NCBI GenBank assembly: GCA_025998875.1
Contig: AP024675.1
Span: forward strand, 124,001-188,000
Direction: 5' to 3'
From: Bacteroidota bacterium
GTDB lineage: Bacteria; Bacteroidota; Rhodothermia; JANXDC01
Length of the DNA stretch: 64,000 nt
How positions within the stretch are numbered: position 1 is the stretch's first letter; the number at the start of each line of letters is the position of its first letter. The notes under the pieces were generated by a model. The model searched no databases, had not been told where the DNA came from, and saw only the letters and a program-made list of their open reading frames with translations. Below are positions 31,453 to 45,751 of this stretch, piece by piece. A program made the position numbers and the translations under genes.

Positions 31453-32238
31453 ATGCGACCCTCCGGCATCATCACCCTGCTTACCGACTTCGGAGAACAG
31501 GACTACTTTGTGGGCGCGATGAAGGGGGAAATCCTCTCTCGCGCCCCGGATGTGCGCCTTGTGGACCTCTCTCACCAGGTCCGGGCGCACGACATTCTGC
31601 ACGGGGCCTTCATTCTGCGACATGCCTACAGGCACTTCCCCGCAGGCACGGTGCACCTGTTCGTCATCGATCCCGGTGTGGGTAGCGCGCGCCGCCCGGT
31701 GGCCGTATTGGCCCATGGCCACTATTTCGTGGGTCCGGACAATGGGCTTCTGAGCCTGGTACTAGAGGACAGCCCCTTTGAAGCGGTCGTGCTGGAGCGG
31801 CGCGAATACTTCCGATCGGAAATCAGCCGCACCTTTCACGGCCGGGATCTCTTCGCCCCTGTGGCCGCCCATCTGGCTCGAGGCGTGGAGCTCCGGGAGT
31901 TCGGAACCCCGATCTCGGAGCTGGTTCCGGCTTGCTGGCCCCGTCCTCAGCGGCTGGCCAAGGGGCTGAAGGGGCAGATCCTGCACATTGATCGATTCGG
32001 AAACGCGATCACAAACCTGAGACCCGAGGATATTCCCCCCGTAGAGCAGGTTCGGTTCCGCTGTGGCCGATTGCGCTGCGAAGGGCTCGCCTCTGCATAC
32101 GCCGCTGTGGAGCCGGGCCAGCCTCTGGCCATCGTGGGCAGTGCGGGCTTTATCGAACTTTCCGTGCGCGAAGCCTCGGCTGCCGCGCTCTACGGCCTAC
32201 ATCCAGGAGATCCAGTCATCCTACGATGGAAGCCATGA
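31453..32238 (+). CDS. SAM hydroxide adenosyltransferase (DUF62)
   Basis: 261 residues of the fluorinase/DUF62 family, whose ordinary members cleave S-adenosylmethionine with water to adenosine and methionine. Visible motifs: LLTDFGEQDYFVGAMKG at the N-terminus, FVIDPGVGS, GPDNGLLS, and NAITNL in the C-terminal barrel. The fluorinase-specific insertion is absent. First gene of a tightly packed chain; its stop overlaps the ABM gene (ATGA). Confidence 0.93.
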   Translation: MRPSGIITLLTDFGEQDYFVGAMKGEILSRAPDVRLVDLSHQVRAHDILHGAFILRHAYRHFPAGTVHLFVIDPGVGSARRPVAVLAHGHYFVGPDNGLLSLVLEDSPFEAVVLERREYFRSEISRTFHGRDLFAPVAAHLARGVELREFGTPISELVPACWPRPQRLAKGLKGQILHIDRFGNAITNLRPEDIPPVEQVRFRCGRLRCEGLASAYAAVEPGQPLAIVGSAGFIELSVREASAAALYGLHPGDPVILRWKP

Positions 32239-36271: not shown

Positions 36272-36344
36272 TCCCCGGTAGCTCAATCGGTAGAGCAAGC
36301 GGCTGTTAACCGCTGGGTTGCAGGTTCGAGTCCTGCCCGGGGAG
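36272..36344 (+). tRNA. tRNA-Asn (anticodon GTT)
   Basis: 73 bases folding as a standard cloverleaf: acceptor TCCCCGG/CCGGGGA with discriminator G, D-arm GCTC/GAGC, anticodon stem AGCGG/CCGCT with loop CTGTTAA (anticodon GTT at its centre), and T-arm GCAGG/CCTGC with loop TTCGAGT. The 3' CCA is not encoded. It fits with gatB in the same window, since Asp-tRNA(Asn) amidation is one role of GatCAB. Confidence 0.97.
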
Positions 36345-36347
36345 CCG

Positions 36348-36648: not shown

Positions 36649-37527
36649 TCACATACGCGGCAGAAGACCTGACACAGGGGACCCGGGAAGCCTGTACGGC
36701 CCGGGAGCCCCGATACATCCACCCTGCCCGTTTGTCGGCCTGCGCAGCCATAATACCAGATGATCGCCCAGCGCGCGGAGCAGGGGCAGGCGGCTCAGGA
36801 ACGCATCCACCGCCTCCAGCCCCCGAAGCCGGTCAGAAAGGCGCGTCCAGAACCGATAGCCCGGAGGTGGTAGCAAAAGCCAAAGGGCCTCTGCCCCTTC
36901 CCAGATCCAGTCACGGCAAAGGCGCCGCAGTTCCCGGAGCCCGTAGTAGCGCACGGGTATGGACTGGCCATCGACAAGGGCCTCTCCGATGGGATCTTTC
37001 CAGCGCCGCAGCCGTCCCTGTCGGAGCCCGCAGAGCAGTTCATCCAGAACCGCCCATCGGTTGATGACCACAAGCAGCAGACGCCCCCCGGGCCGAAGCC
37101 CCCGGGCTATGGCCTCCATTACGGGTCGGGGATCCGGAACGGCGTTCAATCCTCCGAAGTTGAGCAGGGCCGCCGCATAGTGCTGCGGTTCGGGCTGAAA
37201 ACGCCGGATATCGGCCTTTTCGATGCGCACGGCAGAGGCCCAAAAGGCGGTCTTTTCCCGGAGCACTTCCAGCATTCCGGGGGCCGCATCCACGGCGTGT
37301 ACACGAAAACCACGCTCCAGGAGCCATCGTGCATCCTCCCCCGTGCCGGCGGCCAGATCCAAAATCCACGATCCCGGCTCAAGCCCCCGGATGAGGCGCT
37401 CAAGCAAACGTTGGCGGGCCCTCTGAACCTGTCCGAGTGCGCAAAACCGCTCATCGTATCGGGGCGCATACTGGCTGAAGGCCTCCGGTATACGCTCCCA
37501 GTCAGCTTCGCCTCCAGGCCAGCGCAT
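36649..37527 (-). CDS. Class I SAM-dependent methyltransferase of the radical SAM operon
   Basis: 292 residues. Rossmann methyltransferase with LDLAAGTGEDARWL (SAM loop), VHAVDAAPGML (acidic end of strand 2), then DIRRF and LLNFGGLNAVPD. The C-terminal 100 residues are basic and hydrophobic. The start overlaps the upstream radical SAM gene by 26 bases. Substrate unknown; position suggests it modifies the same product as the two radical SAM enzymes. Confidence 0.85.
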   Translation of the reverse strand: MRWPGGEADWERIPEAFSQYAPRYDERFCALGQVQRARQRLLERLIRGLEPGSWILDLAAGTGEDARWLLERGFRVHAVDAAPGMLEVLREKTAFWASAVRIEKADIRRFQPEPQHYAAALLNFGGLNAVPDPRPVMEAIARGLRPGGRLLLVVINRWAVLDELLCGLRQGRLRRWKDPIGEALVDGQSIPVRYYGLRELRRLCRDWIWEGAEALWLLLPPPGYRFWTRLSDRLRGLEAVDAFLSRLPLLRALGDHLVLWLRRPTNGQGGCIGAPGPYRLPGSPVSGLLPRM

Positions 37528-38851
37528 ACATACCTCCGGCGGCCAGCCAGCCCTTCAGACGGGCTATCGGAGAGGCGGCTCGGCCCGCGTTGCTCACGTA
37601 TCGGGTGGCGAAATAGTAAAACGCCCGTCCGTAGCGCCCCCGGAAATCCAGCTCCCGATCCGAGCTTTCCTCCCAGGGCCGGGCTGGCTTGAGCCGATCG
37701 GCCACTTCACGATAGAACGCCGTTCCCTTGATTGGATAGGCCACGGTGATGAGAAACTCATCCGGACGCGTACGCCGCAGATGTGCGGCTGTCTCGCGGA
37801 TGTCGCGCAGGCCCTCCCCCACATAGCCCAGCATCACAAACAGGCCCACGCGGATTCCGGCCCGCTGCAACAGGTGCGTGGCCTGTCGAATCTGTTCGGC
37901 CGTGACCCCGCGCTCCATGGCCGCCAACAGGCGATCGGAGCCGGATTCCGAACCCAGCCAGACCTGCTGACATCCCATCTCGGACAGAAGCCAAGCGATC
38001 CGGGCATCTACGCGATCGGCGCGCGTGATACAGGTAAAGGGCGCTCGAATCCGGCGTTTTTCCAGTTCTCGGGCGTACTTTTCTAACCAGCTCGGCTTGA
38101 TCGTGAAGACATCATCGACATACCAGATCGATTCAGGTCGATAGCGCTCCATGATATCGGCCACCTCGTCGGCGACGCGCTCCGGGCTCCGTTTTCGAAA
38201 CGTATCGCCGAAGACGGCCTTGCTACACCAGCGACACCGATACGGACAGCCCCGGGCGGTGGACACGGAAACCGATCCCATCCCGTGCGCGGCGCGCCAG
38301 GCGGCCAGATAACGGGCCATGCAGACGGCCTCCCGATCCGGCCAGGGCAGCGCATCGAGATCCGGCACGAGAGGTCGGGGAGGGCCGAAGAGGATCTCAT
38401 TGCCCCTGCGCACCGCGGCACCGGCCACGGCGTGCTCCAACCGTTTTTCCGCCAGCAGGGGTAATAGTTCAGCCAGCGTATGTTCTCCCTCTCCGAGCAC
38501 CACCGCATCGGCCCCGAAAAGCAGATATTCTCGGGGATAATTCGAAGCGTCCGGCCCCCCGACCACGACGCTTTTGCCCGCCTCGCGGGCCAGCCGAATG
38601 AGCCGCAAAGCCCGGGACCGGGTCATGAGGTTTGTATAGATGCCCACCACAGGAGCCCGGGAGGCGCGCAGTCCCTGCTCGACTTCCGACCAGTGGGCAA
38701 AGGTCGTATCCAGCACCTCCACCCGGAACCCCAGCTTTTTCAGGTAGGCGGACAGATATAAGATCCCGAGCGGCGGATAGGGCCGCATGATCCGCCGCTC
38801 CCGGGGATCTTCGGCCAGACAATAGGCGTGTGTCAGCAACAGATCGCTCAT
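37502..38851 (-). CDS. B12-binding radical SAM protein (second of pair)
   Basis: 449 residues. An N-terminal cobalamin-binding-like Rossmann domain (1-150) opens SDLLLTHAYCLAEDP with YPPLGILYLSAYL; the radical SAM domain follows with CPYRCRWC (4Fe-4S cysteines) near residue 205 and GSESGSDRLL. The usual base-off DxHxxG motif is absent, as in many members of this class. Such enzymes often methylate unactivated carbons or rearrange rings. The ATG at 38851 overlaps the first radical SAM gene (ATGA). Clearly paralogous to its neighbour. Confidence 0.88.
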   Translation of the reverse strand: MSDLLLTHAYCLAEDPRERRIMRPYPPLGILYLSAYLKKLGFRVEVLDTTFAHWSEVEQGLRASRAPVVGIYTNLMTRSRALRLIRLAREAGKSVVVGGPDASNYPREYLLFGADAVVLGEGEHTLAELLPLLAEKRLEHAVAGAAVRRGNEILFGPPRPLVPDLDALPWPDREAVCMARYLAAWRAAHGMGSVSVSTARGCPYRCRWCSKAVFGDTFRKRSPERVADEVADIMERYRPESIWYVDDVFTIKPSWLEKYARELEKRRIRAPFTCITRADRVDARIAWLLSEMGCQQVWLGSESGSDRLLAAMERGVTAEQIRQATHLLQRAGIRVGLFVMLGYVGEGLRDIRETAAHLRRTRPDEFLITVAYPIKGTAFYREVADRLKPARPWEESSDRELDFRGRYGRAFYYFATRYVSNAGRAASPIARLKGWLAAGGMYALAWRRS

Positions 38852-40296
38852 CCTGTGGCGGCAGGTTGCTGTTGCCACCAGCGATGCCATCGGGGATCGG
38901 GGCGGGCGCGTAGGCGGCGCACCAGGCCCCAGTACAAGGCTCTGCTCAGCGCCCAACCCAGCACAAGCAGACTGCGCGGCCCGATGGGCTCCCGACCCGC
39001 CCGGAGCCGCCAGATCCGGTGCCGGGCGTGCAGTTCCCGGTGCAGCGCCGGATAGAAATGCGGCCTGTAGTAGGCCGGCGCGATCGGCTCTACATCGTCC
39101 GCGTGCGCCCAGTTGGTGCGCTCCCCGAGCAGGAATCGGGCGCGTTCGAAGAACTCCGTTCCCGGCAGGGGATAGGCGGTGGAGATACCGATCTCATCGG
39201 GCACGAGCTCCCGCACCAGCGCCCAGGTGCAGGCGATATCCTCCGGGGTCTCCTCCGGATAGCCGAACTGCAAAAACCACCCCACCCGGATTCCCCTGCG
39301 CCGGAGCTCGTTCGTAGCCAGGCGCACGTCCTCCGGATCGATCCCCTTGCGCATGGCCTTAAGCACCCGGACGGATCCGGACTCCACGCCCATCCAGAGC
39401 GTTCGGCATCCGGATCGGGCCAGAGGGTCGAAGGCCTTCAGGCGCCGGAGCAGATCGGCCCGCTGCAGACACCGGTAGGGCAGTCGAGGACCGCGGGACT
39501 CAACGAGTTCGGCCCAGCGTTCCAGCCATCCGGGCTGGAGCCCGAAGATGTCATCCATGAACCAGATATGTTCGGCCCCATAGGCGCGGGCCAGCAACCG
39601 AACCTGCTCGAGCACGCGCTCCGGGGATTGGGCCCGGTAACGCCGGCCGAAAAGGGGCTTGGCGCACCAGGCGCATCCATACGGGCACCCCCGGGAGGTG
39701 TTGAGGTTAAAGGAAACATACCCGTGGTGCCGGATCCAGAAACGCCGGTATCGTTCCATATCGACCAGGTCCCATGCCGGATCCGGAAGCTCGTCCAGGT
39801 CCGGTTCCGCCACAGCGCCGGGCTCGAGCAGGGACACAGGATCCCCTCTCCCCCCGCCCCGCGCTATGGCTTCCAGACAGGCCAGCACGAGCGCCTCGTT
39901 TCCCGTCCGCAACACGGCCCATGCCCCGGCCTCCAGGTACGGCTGGGGGTGATCGACAGCATCGGCGCTGGAGATCAACACGGGAAGCCCCCGTCTGCTC
40001 GCCTCCCCCACCATCAAGCAGGCGGCCCGGCGCATGCGCTCCAGGCACATTTTAGAGAGGTAGTGAAAGTGATCCTCATAGAGCAGACACACATCGGCTT
40101 GCGCGCACCGGAGCACATCCGCGAACGCCTCGGGTCCGGAGGCCAGGGTGGCGTCGAAGACCTCGACCCGATAGCCCTCCCGGCGAAGCAGGGCGGCCAT
40201 GAGCAGTGTGGCCAGCGGGGGATAGACCGCCCCGGAGCGGCGCATCTTGGGATGATCCAGACTGAGAAAGTACGCGTTAGCTACCAGAATCCGCAT
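38848..40296 (-). CDS. B12-binding radical SAM protein (first of pair)
   Basis: 482 residues. Same layout as the neighbour: RILVANAYFLSLDHP and YPPLATLLMAALL in the cobalamin-binding-like domain, an unusual LLYEDHFHYLSKMCL segment, radical SAM cysteines CPYGCAWC near residue 215, and GVESGSVRVLKAM. The ATG at 40296 lies 20 bases inside the nucleotidyltransferase gene. No lipid, tetrapyrrole or hopanoid genes are close by to fix the pathway. Confidence 0.88.
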   Translation of the reverse strand: MRILVANAYFLSLDHPKMRRSGAVYPPLATLLMAALLRREGYRVEVFDATLASGPEAFADVLRCAQADVCLLYEDHFHYLSKMCLERMRRAACLMVGEASRRGLPVLISSADAVDHPQPYLEAGAWAVLRTGNEALVLACLEAIARGGGRGDPVSLLEPGAVAEPDLDELPDPAWDLVDMERYRRFWIRHHGYVSFNLNTSRGCPYGCAWCAKPLFGRRYRAQSPERVLEQVRLLARAYGAEHIWFMDDIFGLQPGWLERWAELVESRGPRLPYRCLQRADLLRRLKAFDPLARSGCRTLWMGVESGSVRVLKAMRKGIDPEDVRLATNELRRRGIRVGWFLQFGYPEETPEDIACTWALVRELVPDEIGISTAYPLPGTEFFERARFLLGERTNWAHADDVEPIAPAYYRPHFYPALHRELHARHRIWRLRAGREPIGPRSLLVLGWALSRALYWGLVRRLRARPDPRWHRWWQQQPAATG

Positions 40297-41257
40297 CGAT
40301 ATCCTCCCAATAAAGCAGACGCTCAAGCCCCCAGAGCCGGAGCCGATCCGCATAGGCCGACAGAATGCGATCCTGAAAATCCTCCGGGTGCGCTTTGGAG
40401 GCAAAGGGCGTGCTGCGAAAACGCCGGGCGCGTTCTTCGGGGCTCAGGTGCGGATAGCGGCGCGCCCAGGTGTGTACCCAGAATCGGCGCAGCCGTTCAT
40501 CTATCTCGTCGCACAGCCGGGTGCACGGGGCACGTCCCAGCGGGCGCCGAGGCGCGTTATCCCCTTGCGGAATGGGCCAGGGAGTGTTCGGCAGAAAACG
40601 CCATAACCAGGCGTTGGCCTGCAGAAGTCGGCTTCTGTAGGCCTCTCCCCACAACGGCCGGAGCGTCACCAGCTCGGTAGCTGTAAAGAGATTCCGCTCC
40701 GGAATGCGCAAGTGCGCCTCCGTGACCAGGTAGTTGAGGCACAGAAACCGGCGGCTGTTGAGCAGGGCGCTCTTCTTGAAGGCGATGAGCAGGGAGCGCA
40801 CGATCCAGAGCCGCCGCTCGGCGGTTATAAGGAACAGGTCCACATCGGCGCCGGGATCGGCTACTCCTTTGGAAAGTTGCCCGGACAGGAACACGGCGCG
40901 CACGAAAGGTACCCCTGCCAGAAACCGGCCCACCCATCGGGCGGCGACCATGAGCTGGCGGGCTCGACGTTCCCTTTCTTTGCGCAGGGAGACAAGCTCT
41001 TCTCTTCCGGGCAGGCACCAGAAGCCTCCTATGGGGACTAAAACGGAGTGCAGGAGCGCCCGTCGGAACGCGTACCAGTCGGCCTCCACGGGCAGGAAAG
41101 CCCATAGCTCGTCGGCCGAAAGGACGTGCCCGAAGAGATCAAAGTACAGGGCCGCGCTCAGAGCCCCCTCTGAGAGCTGTTTTGAGCAGCAACGGAGAGC
41201 TGAAGTGGCCTGCTGCTCCGAAGGAAAACCCCGCGGTGAACAGGCAACAGGCCCCAT
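40277..41257 (-). CDS. wHTH-nucleotidyltransferase-like protein heading the radical SAM operon
   Basis: 326 residues. The N-terminus resembles a winged helix (ALYFDLFGHVLSADELWAFL, residues 36-55), followed by LPGREELVSLRKERERRA and the minimal nucleotidyltransferase motif FLSGQLSKGVADPGADVDLFLIT, with DxD at 138/140. The usual Gly-Ser is Gly-Gln here (126-127), so activity is uncertain. The ATG at 41257 has a strong GGAGGAGG Shine-Dalgarno. First gene of the four-gene unit; regulator, enzyme or antitoxin-like roles are all possible. Confidence 0.72.
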   Translation of the reverse strand: MGPVACSPRGFPSEQQATSALRCCSKQLSEGALSAALYFDLFGHVLSADELWAFLPVEADWYAFRRALLHSVLVPIGGFWCLPGREELVSLRKERERRARQLMVAARWVGRFLAGVPFVRAVFLSGQLSKGVADPGADVDLFLITAERRLWIVRSLLIAFKKSALLNSRRFLCLNYLVTEAHLRIPERNLFTATELVTLRPLWGEAYRSRLLQANAWLWRFLPNTPWPIPQGDNAPRRPLGRAPCTRLCDEIDERLRRFWVHTWARRYPHLSPEERARRFRSTPFASKAHPEDFQDRILSAYADRLRLWGLERLLYWEDIDADSGS

Positions 41258-41283
41258 ATTTCCTCCTCCCCTAAGGCGGTGTG

Positions 41284-41315
41284 TACAAATAATAGCCGGC
41301 CTCTGTATGGGGCAA
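41284..41315 (-). promoter_or_regulatory. Putative promoter of the radical SAM operon
   Basis: On the minus strand, TTG (41315-41313), 21 bases, then TATTTGTA (41291-41284). The start would be near 41277, before the Shine-Dalgarno of the nucleotidyltransferase gene. Confidence 0.45.
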
Positions 41316-41340: not shown

Positions 41341-41374
41341 AAGAAAACGGCCTGCTCTTGAGAGCAGGCCGTTT
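41341..41374 (-). terminator. Terminator of the SusC/SusD operon
   Basis: A perfect stem AAACGGCCTGCTC/GAGCAGGCCGTTT (41345-41357, 41362-41374) with a 4-base loop lies 23 bases after the SusD stop. On the minus strand it runs into TTTTCTTTTT, a terminator tail. Confidence 0.85.
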
Positions 41375-41397: not shown

Positions 41398-42711
41398 CTA
41401 TCGAGGATAGTTCGGGTTGGAGTTGCGCTCGATGCGCGGAATGATGAGGTAAAGCTTTTCTGCGCTCAAGATCACGTTCCGGACCGGATCCTGGGAGGCG
41501 GGTTTGCCAGCCGCTTCTTCGCGGACCACGGAGGGGATGTAGCGCTGCACGAAATCGGCCCCATAGGTGGCCCAGCGGCGCATGTCCGCGATGCGCTTGC
41601 CCTCCAGCCAGAGCTCCACACCCCGCTCCCGGATCAGCAGAGGCCAGGCCTCCTCGACGGTTTGAGCCGAGACCAGGGGCAGGTTATAGCGGAAACGGGT
41701 GTTGTTGTACTGCCGGACCTCGTTGATCTTGGCCACGGCCGTTTGCACATCCCCCTGTCGGAGGGCGTATTCGGCCTCCAGCAGCCGCATGTCCGTGCCC
41801 TTGATCACGGCGATAGGATCGGAGTAACTCTTGTACTTGCGCTGGCGCCAGAAGGGCCGCCGACCATCCCCTCCGTTCTTGCCGGAGATATCGTACGGCA
41901 CACGGGGATCGCCTTCAGAGACCGAGGGATTGGTGAGGTTCAGCCCCCAGCGAGCGAAGGGCGTGCCCCATACGGAGCACTCATCCCGCAGGTATCCCCA
42001 CCAGTAGAAATAGTTGCGCTCCCGATCGGTTTTATCCGCATGGATCTGGTAGAAGACAAAATCGGTCGGGATCTGGCGCATGTCCTGCAGCGCCTCGCTC
42101 CAGCGGCCAAGCTGGACATAGCACCAGGCCCGTCCGCCAAGGGAGGAGAGCAGCACGTCTCGGTTGTTGATGGCCTGGGCGATCTGAATGGCCCGGTTGA
42201 AATACGTAATGGCCCGTTCGTAGTAGGTCGTATGGGGCTGCGGGGAGCCGCCGTTGATTACGGCCTCTCCATAGTGATCGCCCATAACGCGGTTGATGTG
42301 GCCGGCCCACATGGCCACGGTAGCCACGTTTACGTCGCGGTCCGGGTTTTCGACGAGCTTGCTCAGCCGCTCCACAGCCTGTTCGGCCGTCCAGCGCGCC
42401 TGAGAGGCGCCGGACCATCGACCGTCGGCCTCGGTCCAATCGTCCGGGATCCCGTTGCTGAGCAGGCGCAGGCCGATCCAGGTGCCCACGTGCACGAGTT
42501 CATCGGTGAGCATGGCGCCGGCGTTGTATAGCCCTCCCCCACCAGGGATCGTGGTGGCCCAGGCGAAATCACCCGCTACCCCGTTTACGATGGGGGTAAT
42601 GGCTTTGGGATCATCCAAGTATTCGTCCTGAATCTGCCCCGGGTTGGTCACCGACAGATCGCATCCGGCGGCCCAGAAGCCCACCAGGGCGAGTAGGGCA
42701 AAACGCCTCAT
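41398..42711 (-). CDS. RagB/SusD family outer-membrane nutrient-binding lipoprotein
   Basis: 437 residues. Lipoprotein signal with AAGC (Cys17). SusD-type TPR scaffold: an N-terminal domain with NPGQIQDEYLDDPKAITPIVNG, repeated helices, and the C-terminal LLEAEYALRQGD / INEVR and RERGVELWLEGKRIADMRRW segments. It pairs with SusC (19 bases upstream) to bind and import oligomers across the outer membrane. No glycosidase or peptidase lies in the same operon, so the substrate is unknown; nearby peptidases make peptides possible. Confidence 0.93.
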   Translation of the reverse strand: MRRFALLALVGFWAAGCDLSVTNPGQIQDEYLDDPKAITPIVNGVAGDFAWATTIPGGGGLYNAGAMLTDELVHVGTWIGLRLLSNGIPDDWTEADGRWSGASQARWTAEQAVERLSKLVENPDRDVNVATVAMWAGHINRVMGDHYGEAVINGGSPQPHTTYYERAITYFNRAIQIAQAINNRDVLLSSLGGRAWCYVQLGRWSEALQDMRQIPTDFVFYQIHADKTDRERNYFYWWGYLRDECSVWGTPFARWGLNLTNPSVSEGDPRVPYDISGKNGGDGRRPFWRQRKYKSYSDPIAVIKGTDMRLLEAEYALRQGDVQTAVAKINEVRQYNNTRFRYNLPLVSAQTVEEAWPLLIRERGVELWLEGKRIADMRRWATYGADFVQRYIPSVVREEAAGKPASQDPVRNVILSAEKLYLIIPRIERNSNPNYPR

Positions 42712-42729
42712 GGCCTTTTCCTCCCTGCC

Positions 42730-45618
42730 TTAGAAACCCACACGCAACCCGAAGACGACCTGCCTCGGCGTCGGGGTGCCGAAGTACTCCTGCTGGCTCA
42801 GGTCTCGGTCCGTGGCATAGGAGCTTTCAACCTCCAGCAGGGGGAACTTAAACCAGCGCCACAAGTTGCGGCCCGAGAGGTAGACCATCACGGAGCGCAC
42901 ATGCTGGCCCACGAACCGGCTCAGCACGGATTCCGGCACCCGATAGCTCACCGACAGCTCGCGCAACCGCCAGTAGTCGGCCGGCACCACGACGTTGCCC
43001 CGCGGCCCGCCACGACCCCAGGGGCGCTGGATGTACTGCTGCATAACGGGGTCGTTCTTGTACTTATCCATATGGGCCCAGAGGCCGACCGTCTGGCCCG
43101 CCTTGTCGGGCAGGACGGGATCGTTGACGGCCACCGTCCAGTTCATCAGCCAGCGGAAGGTGGTGCTTTCCACGTAATGGCCGCCGGCGTGATCGAAAAG
43201 CAACCGGAAGTTCAGGTTGCGGAACAGGGTCAGCTCTGTCGACAGCTGGACCTTGCGGATGGGGAAGGAGGGCCCGATATAATCCCAGCCGTCCGGAAGC
43301 GTTCCGTCGGGGTTGCGCAGCAGCTGGCTGGCCAGTCCCACCTGACCATCCTTGAGGATATAGCGATCCTCAAAGTAGGCGGCCACCGGGTAGCCGACCT
43401 TGTGCTTCTGCGACCAGTGCACCGGGATCTCGGGCATACCGGCCAGATCGAGCACCTTGTTGTAGTTGGTCGAAAAGCCGGCCTGGAAGCTCCAGCGCGC
43501 CTGCGCTGTGTTCAGCGCCACCAGCATGGCCGATAGCTCAACGCCACGGTTGCGGAGTCGGCCCCGGTTTTCCAGCTGCGGGTTGGGGAATCCCTGCGAG
43601 GGTGGATACTGCACCGCCAGCAGAGCGTCGCGCGTTTCCTGGTTGTACCAGGTAAACTCCACCGACAGGCGATCACCCAGCAGCGAGGCATCGAGCCCGA
43701 GCTCGCGCTCATGACTCACCTCTGGACCCAATTTCGGGTTGCCCAGATTGAGCGTGGTCACCCCGGGCTTGCCGTCCACGGCCGATATCGGCTGCCAGGT
43801 GCGCACGGCATCAAAGGTGCCGGGCTGCCGGCCAGCGGTTCCATAGGCGACCCGAATCCGGAAGGAAGGCACCCAGAAGGCGCGCAGCGGCTCCCAGAAG
43901 CGGAATCCCGAGAGCAGGATCGAGGCGTTCGCGCTCGGATAGACCTGATAGGGATAGTCCTTTCCGAAGGCGCTGTGCCCGTCGACGCGGGTGCCGGCAT
44001 TCAGAAAGATCACCTCCCAGAAGCCCAGCCCGATCTGGGCAAATCCACCGGCGGATTTGATGTTCAGGCGCGTCTCGGTGCCCTCACGCACCGCCGCGGC
44101 GCTGACCACAGACAGCCCGGGGGTGGGGAAATCCCGACCCGTGGCCGTATTGGCGCCATAGGCGCGCTCGTAATACTGCCATCCCGCGGTGGCGTTGAGA
44201 TTAACCCAGGACGCCAGGCGACGGGTGAAGTTGGTCGCGTATTCGAAGCTCAGGATCGTGGCATCCCGCCGGTAATTGACCTTCCGACCCAGCGGAACTT
44301 GAGAGACCCCGCCGTAGGGGAAGTACTCCGTGTTGTCGTAGTTGACGATATCCGCACCCAGCGTCAAACGATGGGTGAACCCTTCAAGGGGGCGGTATTC
44401 CACCGAGGCCGATCCAGTAAAGCGGCCGGATTTGCCCCGCACGTCCGTGGTCAGCGCTTCGGCCGGCGGGATGAAGCGGCCCCTCTGGCCTCCACCCAGC
44501 CCGTTGATGGCCAATCCGTAAATGTTGTTCGCATCCTGGGGGAAGAGCACTTCGCGCGTGGCATACCCCGTGTTGAAGCGCACGATCAGGTTCTGCCGGG
44601 GCAGGAGCTGCAGGTTGACCCGGAAATGCCGGCCCTCTTCCCGGTTACCCCTCAACACCCCGTCCTGATTACGCAGACCGGCGGAGGCGTAGTAGGTAAA
44701 GCCCTGGAGCCCACCGGAGACGGAAAGCTGCTGATCGACGACCCCGCCTGCACGCACAAAATTGTCGTAGAACCAGGGGCTGTAGAGGGAAACATTCCAC
44801 CAGTCGAAGGGTGTCGAGCTCTGCCCGATCTCGCTGCGGTACTCCCAGCGCGGCGCGCCTGTGCGGCCGGTGCGGGTGAAGATCTGAATGACCCCCGCCG
44901 CCGCCTCTGTGCCGTAAATGGTCGAGGACGCCGCGCCCTTTACGATTTCCACCCGCTCGATATCCTCCGGGTTGAGGTCATCGAGCCCGCTCCAGGAGTA
45001 CCCTCCAGTCCAGACCCCCAGCGCGGTGGAGTTATCAATCCGCACCCCGTCGACATAGATAATGGGCTGAATACCCTGCGTTACGCTCACCGGACCGCGG
45101 ATCAGGATCTTCGTGCCCTCTCCCGTCTTTCCCCCGCCGGGGAGCACGTTCACCCCGGGAGTGCGTGCCTGCAGCAGCTGAGACATGTTCAGAATGGGGG
45201 CGTCCTCGAGCCGGCGCACATCCAGGGTGGCAATGGAAGCGCCAATCTCCTTGCGCGCCGCCTCGCGGGCCACGCCCGTTACGACGACCTCTTCCAGATT
45301 GATGGCCTGCTCCCGAAGGGCGAAGTTCACCGTTACGCTCTGCCCCGCTGCCACGGTCACGGAACGGGAAGCGGTCTCATAGCCCAGGAAACGAGCTTGC
45401 ACCGTATAGGTGCCTGGACGAACCTGAAGAGTATAGCGGCCCTGATTATCCGTGGCCGCACCCTGCGTGGTACCCAGAAGCACGATGTTCACCCCGGGCA
45501 GGGGGTCACCCGTGCGTGCGTCGGTAACGCGCCCCTGAATCGTGCCCGTCTGGGCCCACAAAAACCCGGCTGATAGCAATACACAGCCGATGCCACCCAG
45601 CGTGCGCAACCAGCCCAT
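42730..45618 (-). CDS. SusC/RagA TonB-linked outer-membrane transporter
   Basis: 962 residues. Signal peptide, a carboxypeptidase-regulatory-like domain (GTIQGRVTDARTGDPLPGVN, 20-105), a TonB box region LEEVVVTG, the plug (DVRRLEDAPILNMSQLLQARTPG; IIYVDGVRIDN) and a long beta-barrel ending in VFGLRVGF with the C-terminal aromatic. The ATG at 45618 has GAGGAGG eight bases upstream. With SusD it forms a pedal-bin importer. Confidence 0.95.
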   Translation of the reverse strand: MGWLRTLGGIGCVLLSAGFLWAQTGTIQGRVTDARTGDPLPGVNIVLLGTTQGAATDNQGRYTLQVRPGTYTVQARFLGYETASRSVTVAAGQSVTVNFALREQAINLEEVVVTGVAREAARKEIGASIATLDVRRLEDAPILNMSQLLQARTPGVNVLPGGGKTGEGTKILIRGPVSVTQGIQPIIYVDGVRIDNSTALGVWTGGYSWSGLDDLNPEDIERVEIVKGAASSTIYGTEAAAGVIQIFTRTGRTGAPRWEYRSEIGQSSTPFDWWNVSLYSPWFYDNFVRAGGVVDQQLSVSGGLQGFTYYASAGLRNQDGVLRGNREEGRHFRVNLQLLPRQNLIVRFNTGYATREVLFPQDANNIYGLAINGLGGGQRGRFIPPAEALTTDVRGKSGRFTGSASVEYRPLEGFTHRLTLGADIVNYDNTEYFPYGGVSQVPLGRKVNYRRDATILSFEYATNFTRRLASWVNLNATAGWQYYERAYGANTATGRDFPTPGLSVVSAAAVREGTETRLNIKSAGGFAQIGLGFWEVIFLNAGTRVDGHSAFGKDYPYQVYPSANASILLSGFRFWEPLRAFWVPSFRIRVAYGTAGRQPGTFDAVRTWQPISAVDGKPGVTTLNLGNPKLGPEVSHERELGLDASLLGDRLSVEFTWYNQETRDALLAVQYPPSQGFPNPQLENRGRLRNRGVELSAMLVALNTAQARWSFQAGFSTNYNKVLDLAGMPEIPVHWSQKHKVGYPVAAYFEDRYILKDGQVGLASQLLRNPDGTLPDGWDYIGPSFPIRKVQLSTELTLFRNLNFRLLFDHAGGHYVESTTFRWLMNWTVAVNDPVLPDKAGQTVGLWAHMDKYKNDPVMQQYIQRPWGRGGPRGNVVVPADYWRLRELSVSYRVPESVLSRFVGQHVRSVMVYLSGRNLWRWFKFPLLEVESSYATDRDLSQQEYFGTPTPRQVVFGLRVGF

Positions 45619-45677
45619 CGCCTGTACCTCCTCTACTGGGATACAACCCCGCCCTGTAGAGGGCGAGCGGACCAAAG

Positions 45678-45708
45678 GGAGAATAACACGCCAATTCGGA
45701 AAAGTCAA
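45678..45708 (-). promoter_or_regulatory. Weak promoter candidate for SusC/SusD
   Basis: On the minus strand, TTG (45708-45706), 20 bases, then TATTCTCC (45685-45678). Spacing is one short and the last four bases of the -7 match poorly. Confidence 0.25.
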
Positions 45709-45751
45709 GCACCCTGCCCCTCTGCGACCCCCTTTTTGTGTACAAAACAAA

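Follow-up and report, generated by a model that had tools for sequence, protein, structure and literature searches.

A nucleotidyltransferase, two B12-type radical SAM proteins and a methyltransferase in a recurrent gene cassette with a possible role in tailoring exported glycans

Gene organization of the cassette

Four genes encoding a putative nucleotidyltransferase (NT), two B12-type radical S-adenosylmethionine (SAM) proteins (R1 and R2) and a methyltransferase (MT) were identified in a 64,000 nucleotide stretch of DNA from a Bacteroidota bacterium (contig AP024675.1, positions 124,001 to 188,000; the whole stretch is called the window). The genes lie on the minus strand in the order NT, R1, R2, MT, and the open reading frames (ORFs) overlap one another by 20 bases (NT/R1), 4 bases (R1/R2, ATGA) and 26 bases (R2/MT), in agreement with an initial annotation made from the sequence of the window. 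The same annotation regarded the genes as a coupled unit, and this is borne out by the overlaps, by an upstream terminator (Table 1) and by the recurrence of the genes across phyla. The terminator closes the unit of a SusCD-like gene pair before NT, which by anatomy would make the cassette a transcription unit of its own. The terminator stretch of 61 nt had a predicted folding energy of -28.5 kcal/mol (z -6.8), and none of 200 shuffled sequences was as stable. The Shine-Dalgarno and promoter-like letters upstream of NT were found as annotated. The promoter itself is unproven, because no sigma-70-like site was called there by a simple promoter scan and the exact pattern TANNTTTG, a Bacteroidota -7 motif, had no match in this stretch. 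When a match to an already characterized cluster was looked for, all four proteins scored below the curated NCBIfam cut-offs, including those of the equivalog models.

Table 1. Features of the cassette and its borders (positions in the window)
Feature	Position	Strand	Basis and remarks
NT, winged helix + pol-beta-type nucleotidyltransferase (putative), 326 aa	40277..41257	-	ORF, model, alignment
R1, B12-type radical SAM protein, 482 aa	38848..40296	-	ATG at 40296; ORF, Pfam, orthologs, fold
R2, second B12-type radical SAM protein, 449 aa	37502..38851	-	ATG at 38851; ORF, Pfam, tree
MT, class I SAM methyltransferase, 292 aa	36649..37527	-	ATG at 37527; Pfam
Shine-Dalgarno of NT, GGGAGGAGG	41262..41270	-	Sequence; precedes NT start
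Promoter-like TTG-N21-TATTTGTA, unproven	41284..41315	-	Sequence; TTG 41315-41313, TATTTGTA 41291-41284
Intrinsic terminator between SusD-like gene and NT	41345..41374	-	13-pair stem, T tail
tRNA-Asn, convergent, just downstream of operon; neighbour, no working part	36272..36346	+

Predicted structure of the nucleotidyltransferase

No match to the NT sequence was found in Pfam, NCBIfam or the PDB sequences. A structural model was built from 54 aligned sequences, that of the window and those of 53 other loci (56 rows were drawn; two near-identical and two long NT-bearing rows were not taken into the alignment, to reach 54), and had a mean predicted local distance difference test (pLDDT) score of 90.2. 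The core of the model was closest to kanamycin nucleotidyltransferase ANT(4'), with Z scores of 9.2-9.3 and a root-mean-square deviation (rmsd) of 2.9-3.2 over 113-115 aligned residues. Lower scores were obtained for MNT proteins and for further nucleotidyltransferases of the aminoglycoside and lincosamide type. Foldseek alone returned no match for the model at E 0.001 or better, and the kinship of NT to known folds is therefore remote. Fold comparison of the model also matched the first 83 residues to winged helices, which supports the winged-helix-like N-terminus proposed from the sequence. Gly126, Asp138 and Asp140 were invariant in all 54 aligned sequences and Glu195 was present in 53. The unusual Gly-Gln in place of Gly-Ser pointed out earlier is real: residue 127 is Gln in the window and in 2/54 sequences overall, and Ser in 45/54. 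Judged from the model, NT has the fold, the glycine and the Asp-x-Asp of a pol-beta-type nucleotidyltransferase, with Gln instead of Ser at residue 127. By deviation at conserved columns, NT of the window ranked fifth among the 54 rows.

Radical SAM proteins and methyltransferase

The radical SAM domain (PF04055, cut-off 29.5 bits) was recognized in both R1 (72.3 bits) and R2 (73.7 bits), and the CxxxCxxC motif, annotated as intact, was confirmed as CPYGCAWC and CPYRCRWC, respectively. Cobalamin-binding-like domains had been annotated in both proteins. For R2 this holds, with 67.8 bits to PF02310 (cut-off 32.1), whereas R1 reached only 15.4 bits and the domain is degenerate in the window, where the GE(G/A)E-type motif is lost. 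A B12-binding-type fold is kept in the R1 model (pLDDT 81.8), as a photocobilin chain aligned to residues 1-152 with a Z score of 10.4. The best fold match of R1 was AprD4 (Z 27.4), followed by OxsB (25.0) and MgmA (24.7). Full-length R1 orthologs were 37-47% identical. In the host genome the best match of the R2 profile was R2 itself, at 648 bits. MT matched Methyltransf_25 with 57 bits (cut-off 27), and the glycine motif of methyltransferases is intact in its sequence. Towards the model of the corrinoid protein-associated methyltransferase CpaM (NF043040) MT scored 52.1 bits, below the cut-off of 180.

R1 and R2 of the window are 37-38% identical (tblastn). A quick tree of 80 rows, some on long branches, separated an R2 clade (25 rows, SH-aLRT support 98) from an R1 clade (44 rows, 81), each extending across phyla. 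By this tree the two are old clades, and the idea that R1 and R2 arose by a recent tandem duplication was rejected. The window contributes one copy to each clade, both on long branches, and their exact place is unsure, the rows having an odd letter make-up. R1 of the window grouped with a sequence from Elusimicrobia (support 94), whose locus has NT-R1-R2 and an altered GE motif. Both this sequence (L095:10001-11596) and R1 of the window depart from GE(G/A)E, and the two possibly represent a sub-lineage moving away from cobalamin.

Distribution and co-occurrence

In 394 genomes of the Bacteroidota in the wide sense, R1 was matched in 31 at an E value of 1e-25 or lower. Four weaker matches (E 7e-26 to 3.5e-35), none of them in a genome with NT, were set aside. 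Of the remaining 27 matches, the one in the sister species of the host is a decayed remnant. NT, searched with the profile of 54 sequences, was found in 30 of the 394 genomes, including all 27 with R1, and in the other three (G034, G039 and G104) it is fused to a GT4 glycosyltransferase. The co-occurrence gave a Fisher p of 9e-39, a value that ignores relatedness. Related methyltransferases lie near R1 in 23/27 loci, and a true R2 (E under 1e-190) was present in 6/27 genomes. The comparison of genomes for adjacency suggested in the initial annotation was thereby carried out, and the genes are not rarely adjacent. The pairing of NT with R1 is almost obligate, MT usually lies beside them, and R2 is an optional, older partner. 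Among 145 relatives of the host, R1 was limited to two species, which make up the genus.

A scan of named genomes gave at least 557 stretches related to R1. The 80 named loci used below are the best of these by likeness to R1 of the window and no random sample; they belong to Bacteroidota, Ignavibacteria, Chlorobiota, Chloroflexota, Acidobacteriota, Elusimicrobiota and Myxococcota or members of these. By sequence, R1 is a large unnamed B12-type radical SAM family of at least seven phyla. As the genes recur together across phyla, the grouping is more than chance.

Gene order and neighbourhood in other genomes

Genes in the loci fetched from other genomes were called by a simple longest-ORF script, and many loci were cut by contig ends. 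The label MT refers there to a profile of proteins about 23-32% identical to MT of the window. NT was found in 63 of the 80 loci, MT in 57, R2 in 22 and all four genes in 13; R1 stood alone in 7. Two radical SAM genes side by side, first thought unusual, are thus no rarity in this family. NT-R1-R2-MT is contiguous in a locus of Myxococcales (L158), and in one of Anaerolineales (L127) the same order is interrupted by one SPASM-type radical SAM gene. From 107 loci, 86 had both NT and R1. The two were on the same strand in 52, with a gap of -160 to +60 bases in 45 of these. In two loci with an only distantly related radical SAM gene (L080 and L081), neither NT nor MT was found.

The genes nearest the cassette were compared with those towards the far ends of each locus, all loci being at least 19 kb long. 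Random samples under size limits comprised 137/184 near and 122/244 far candidates; for the far set 136 were drawn, 14 were dropped and a few were shortened by three bases for coordinates past the locus ends. Wzy_C (O-antigen ligase/Wzy) was found in 13/137 near genes and 2/122 far genes. Bac_transf (initiating sugar transferases) was seen in 7 near genes against at most 2 far, SPASM in 14 against at most 2, Radical_SAM in 19 against 6, Methyltransf_25 in 18 against at most 2 and GT2 in 13 against 8. GT87, a glycosyltransferase type that depends on polyprenyl phosphate, was present near some loci. The Anaerolineales locus begins with a Wzy_C protein and two opposite-strand genes, continues with NT, the SPASM-type radical SAM gene, R1, R2 and MT, and ends with a third B12-type radical SAM gene, a methyltransferase, an amidohydrolase-like gene and a Wzx-type gene, some of these labels being given by likeness to neighbour families.

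In seven proteins NT is fused to a GT4 glycosyltransferase. In one (L074) it forms the C-terminal half, directly before R1. The other six (L018-L023, e.g. L018:8411-10492) are from genomes of the class of the window without R1 or R2; their NT is likewise the C-terminal half and matches the profile over most or almost the whole of its length, and Asp-x-Asp is present in all six. Five of these six loci also contain a related methyltransferase, and in L018 an epimerase family protein adjoins the fusion. The same NT seems here to serve a second purpose without R1. The neighbours and the GT4 fusion tie NT and R1 to glycosyl transfer.

A larger gene set was often seen in Chloroflexota and Bacteroidota (L127:7980-17034, also L057, L060, L063, L068, L070 and L120). 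To the cassette it adds two radical SAM proteins, one a third B12-type protein about 500 aa long and one of SPASM type, as well as more methyltransferases and an amidohydrolase which distantly resembles aminofutalosine deaminase. A search of the host genome for the third radical SAM protein matched only R1 and R2 themselves, and one for the amidohydrolase found nothing, an empty answer that shows little.

The cassette in the host and its sister species

A remnant of all four genes was found in the sister species (L017:1001-4400), in the same place beside the SusD gene. The NT remnant shifts between frames and contains stops. R1 has a stop within the CxxxCxxC stretch and frame breaks, and after about residue 336 it runs into the last part of R2, as by a deletion between the paralogs. 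MT contains stops. That the four genes decayed together is expected if they serve one function or pathway. The remnant also shows the function of the cassette to be dispensable in this genus.

Wzx, Wzy or an initiating transferase beside the cassette were not among the window proteins examined. Two Wzy_C matches and several Bac_transf matches over the cut-off were observed elsewhere in the host genome. In one such region (G000:C1:2261604-2267711) a Bac_transf frame has two internal stops and another is split at 2267183-2267711, signs of probable decay in a surface polysaccharide region.

The SusC/SusD-like pair upstream of the cassette is located at 41398-45750, and its SusD gene corresponds in position to the one bordering the sister-species remnant (L017:4323-5639). 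A SAM hydroxide adenosyltransferase, a member of a SAM-consuming family, is encoded at 31453-32238, 4.4 kb past the end of the SAM-using operon, and is probably unrelated.

Possible function of the cassette

The initial annotation proposed a modified lipid, cofactor or surface molecule and considered the product unpredictable. The surface option is strengthened by the present results, and the product class looks less open than that, as the neighbourhoods in other genomes point to exported glycans. We tentatively favour, at somewhat below even chances, a cassette that tailors, by radical chemistry, an exported (surface) glycan or a lipid-linked sugar. From the linkage of the genes, the folds and the genomic context we infer a substrate, an order of steps and reactions as follows, any single reaction being less certain than the reading as a whole. 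NT would attach a nucleotide, probably adenosine monophosphate, to a hydroxyl group of a saccharide or of its carrier, and this tag would serve for activation or recognition. R2, with its normal B12 domain, could carry out a C-methylation or another B12-radical step at an unactivated carbon. A further radical reaction, which may be a methylation, a deoxygenation or a rearrangement, would fall to R1, and in this host it perhaps proceeds without cobalamin. MT would place a methyl group on O or N. The finished unit would be used by the Wzy-type surface polysaccharide machinery of the host encoded elsewhere in the genome. In a more specific and rather unlikely version, NT and R1 would be enzymes obligately paired in a pathway not described so far: NT tags a free or lipid-linked saccharide, and the B12-type radical SAM enzymes C-methylate or deoxygenate the tagged sugar before its entry into a surface glycan. 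If true, such a tag-then-radical route would be a radical path to rare sugars, distinct from nucleoside diphosphate-sugar pathways and present in at least seven phyla.

Several observations weigh against a role in glycan tailoring. The resemblance of predicted folds shows no substrate. An AprD3-like reductase was not seen in the cassette, and an AprD4-type dehydration is therefore not specifically supported. The cassette of this host has no adjoining glycan gene, its neighbours being the SusCD-like pair, a tRNA and housekeeping genes, and among the loci with R1 and R2 there are examples, such as L086, with no glycan genes in view. NT lies on the opposite strand from R1 in 34/86 loci. In the census, Glycos_transf_1 (GT4-type) was about equally common near and far (7 and 6), as was Polysacc_synt (Wzx-type; 5 and 5), and ABC transporters were commoner among the far genes (12) and fell outside the top 25 near families.

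A modified membrane lipid or polyprenyl carrier could be the product instead, with the radical SAM proteins methylating or cyclizing an acyl or prenyl chain and NT and MT modifying the head group. The sub-threshold matches to TIGR04072 (85.6 bits for R1, 117.3 for R2), HpnJ and HpnR, and the GT87 genes near some loci, would fit such a product. These scores are far under cut-offs of 360 to 650 bits, lipid genes are absent from the 25 commonest neighbour families and NT is fused to glycosyltransferases, and this explanation is considered improbable. A hopanoid, tetrapyrrole or TIGR04072 lipid assignment was rejected, the cut-offs being missed by far. Similarly doubtful is a small secreted or intracellular metabolite, such as an aminoglycoside- or cyclitol-like product or a cofactor, for which the glycan genes would be partly coincidental or would supply a glycosylated product. 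The nearest folds do make (AprD4) or modify (ANT(4')) aminoglycosides, and in both this host and L086 the cassette stands by itself. Yet the spread over at least seven phyla and the Wzy, Bac_transf and Wzx-type neighbours are more in keeping with a structural molecule of the surface than with an antibiotic, and neither resistance genes nor typical natural-product genes were noticed near the loci read.

A lesser but real chance is that the cassette of this host, once acquired, has recently become redundant and is fading: its frames are still open, but its function is being lost or has changed. The sister-species remnant with its stops, frameshifts and R1/R2 deletion and the limitation of R1 to the genus among the relatives point that way, and R1 and R2 of the window deviate most of all rows at conserved columns (18/119, most of 36 rows, and 7/109, most of 20 rows, respectively). 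On the other side, all four frames are open, the CxxxCxxC, DxD and methyltransferase glycine motifs are intact, and the codon-position G+C is of the usual kind, with the second position lowest. Least probable by a wide measure is that NT is a toxin-antitoxin or defence component with which the other genes ride along. MNT antitoxins and Hailong HalB do occur among the fold neighbours of NT. ANT(4') nevertheless outscores MNT (Z 9.3 versus 6.4), no HEPN gene is annotated beside NT in the window, and NT had no match in PADLOC-DB, where only generic and weak matches to PDC-M51A were found for R1 (14.9 bits) and R2 (24.2 bits), and MT matched mad2 (58.1 bits) in its methyltransferase part only. Defence or toxin-antitoxin as the main explanation was rejected on this PADLOC-DB outcome.

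The cassette was not described in the titles and abstract starts covered by open-access literature searches, which is weak evidence of absence. The cross-phylum NT-R1-MT cassette with optional R2 was found neither there nor among the curated models. With at least 557 related stretches, a nearly strict link to NT and no curated name, this large radical SAM family offers a concrete target for tests, and the remnant in the sister species makes genomes and strains with and without the cassette directly comparable. If the glycan tailoring favoured here holds, carbon-radical chemistry would be added to the building of bacterial surface sugars, which influence adhesion, recognition and the entry of phages.

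Comparison with known systems

The best fold match of R1, AprD4 (PDB 6fd2), is a radical SAM 1,2-diol dehydratase of apramycin biosynthesis. The two aligned over 405 residues with an rmsd of 3.7 and 20% identity, and share a B12-type N-terminal domain and a radical SAM domain. The AprD4 model NF033070 has a cut-off of 500 bits, far above the 80 bits of R1 and 59.4 bits of R2. A partner like AprD3 is missing from view in the cassette, where R1 instead travels with NT. AprD4 is described in PMC5461906 as acting on paromamine with its reductase partner AprD3, and radical SAM enzymes acting on sugars are already represented by AprD4 and the cobalamin-dependent GenK and GenD1.

The methylcobalamin-type radical SAM enzymes OxsB, MgmA, TsrM, CysS and TokK followed AprD4 among the fold matches of R1 and were also sequence matches of the R1 and R2 profiles. 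Structural alignments of R1 with such enzymes gave 14-20% identity. The neighbourhoods of these five enzymes differ from that of the cassette. The MgmA structure is PDB 9ccb according to the data statement of PMC11796369. BchE, HpnJ, HpnR and TIGR04072 belong to the same superfamily as R1 and R2 and gave the best curated sequence matches, all far under their cut-offs. TIGR04072 has a cut-off of 360 bits, and the best scores, all from R2, were 97.8 bits for HpnJ (cut-off 577.6), 99.8 for HpnR (650) and 121.4 for BchE (481.35). In contrast to these systems, a tetrapyrrole or hopanoid context was not seen around the cassette, consistent with the earlier remark that no such genes are close.

ANT(4') and the other aminoglycoside and lincosamide types have the core fold, the Gly and the Asp-x-Asp in common with NT, at 11-12% identity. 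Unlike ANT(4'), NT has an added winged helix, another C-terminus and no Pfam match, and it accompanies biosynthesis-type genes instead of being a resistance gene. The likeness in the model is one of core fold only, and would not by itself extend to aminoglycoside nucleotidyl transfer by NT. The R1-free GT4-NT fusions share with the cassette the NT domain and, in five of six loci, a related methyltransferase, and differ in the missing R1 and R2 and the fused glycosyltransferase. A loose analogy to NT is offered by nucleotidyl activation in phosphonate surface tailoring, the subject of PMC6697681.

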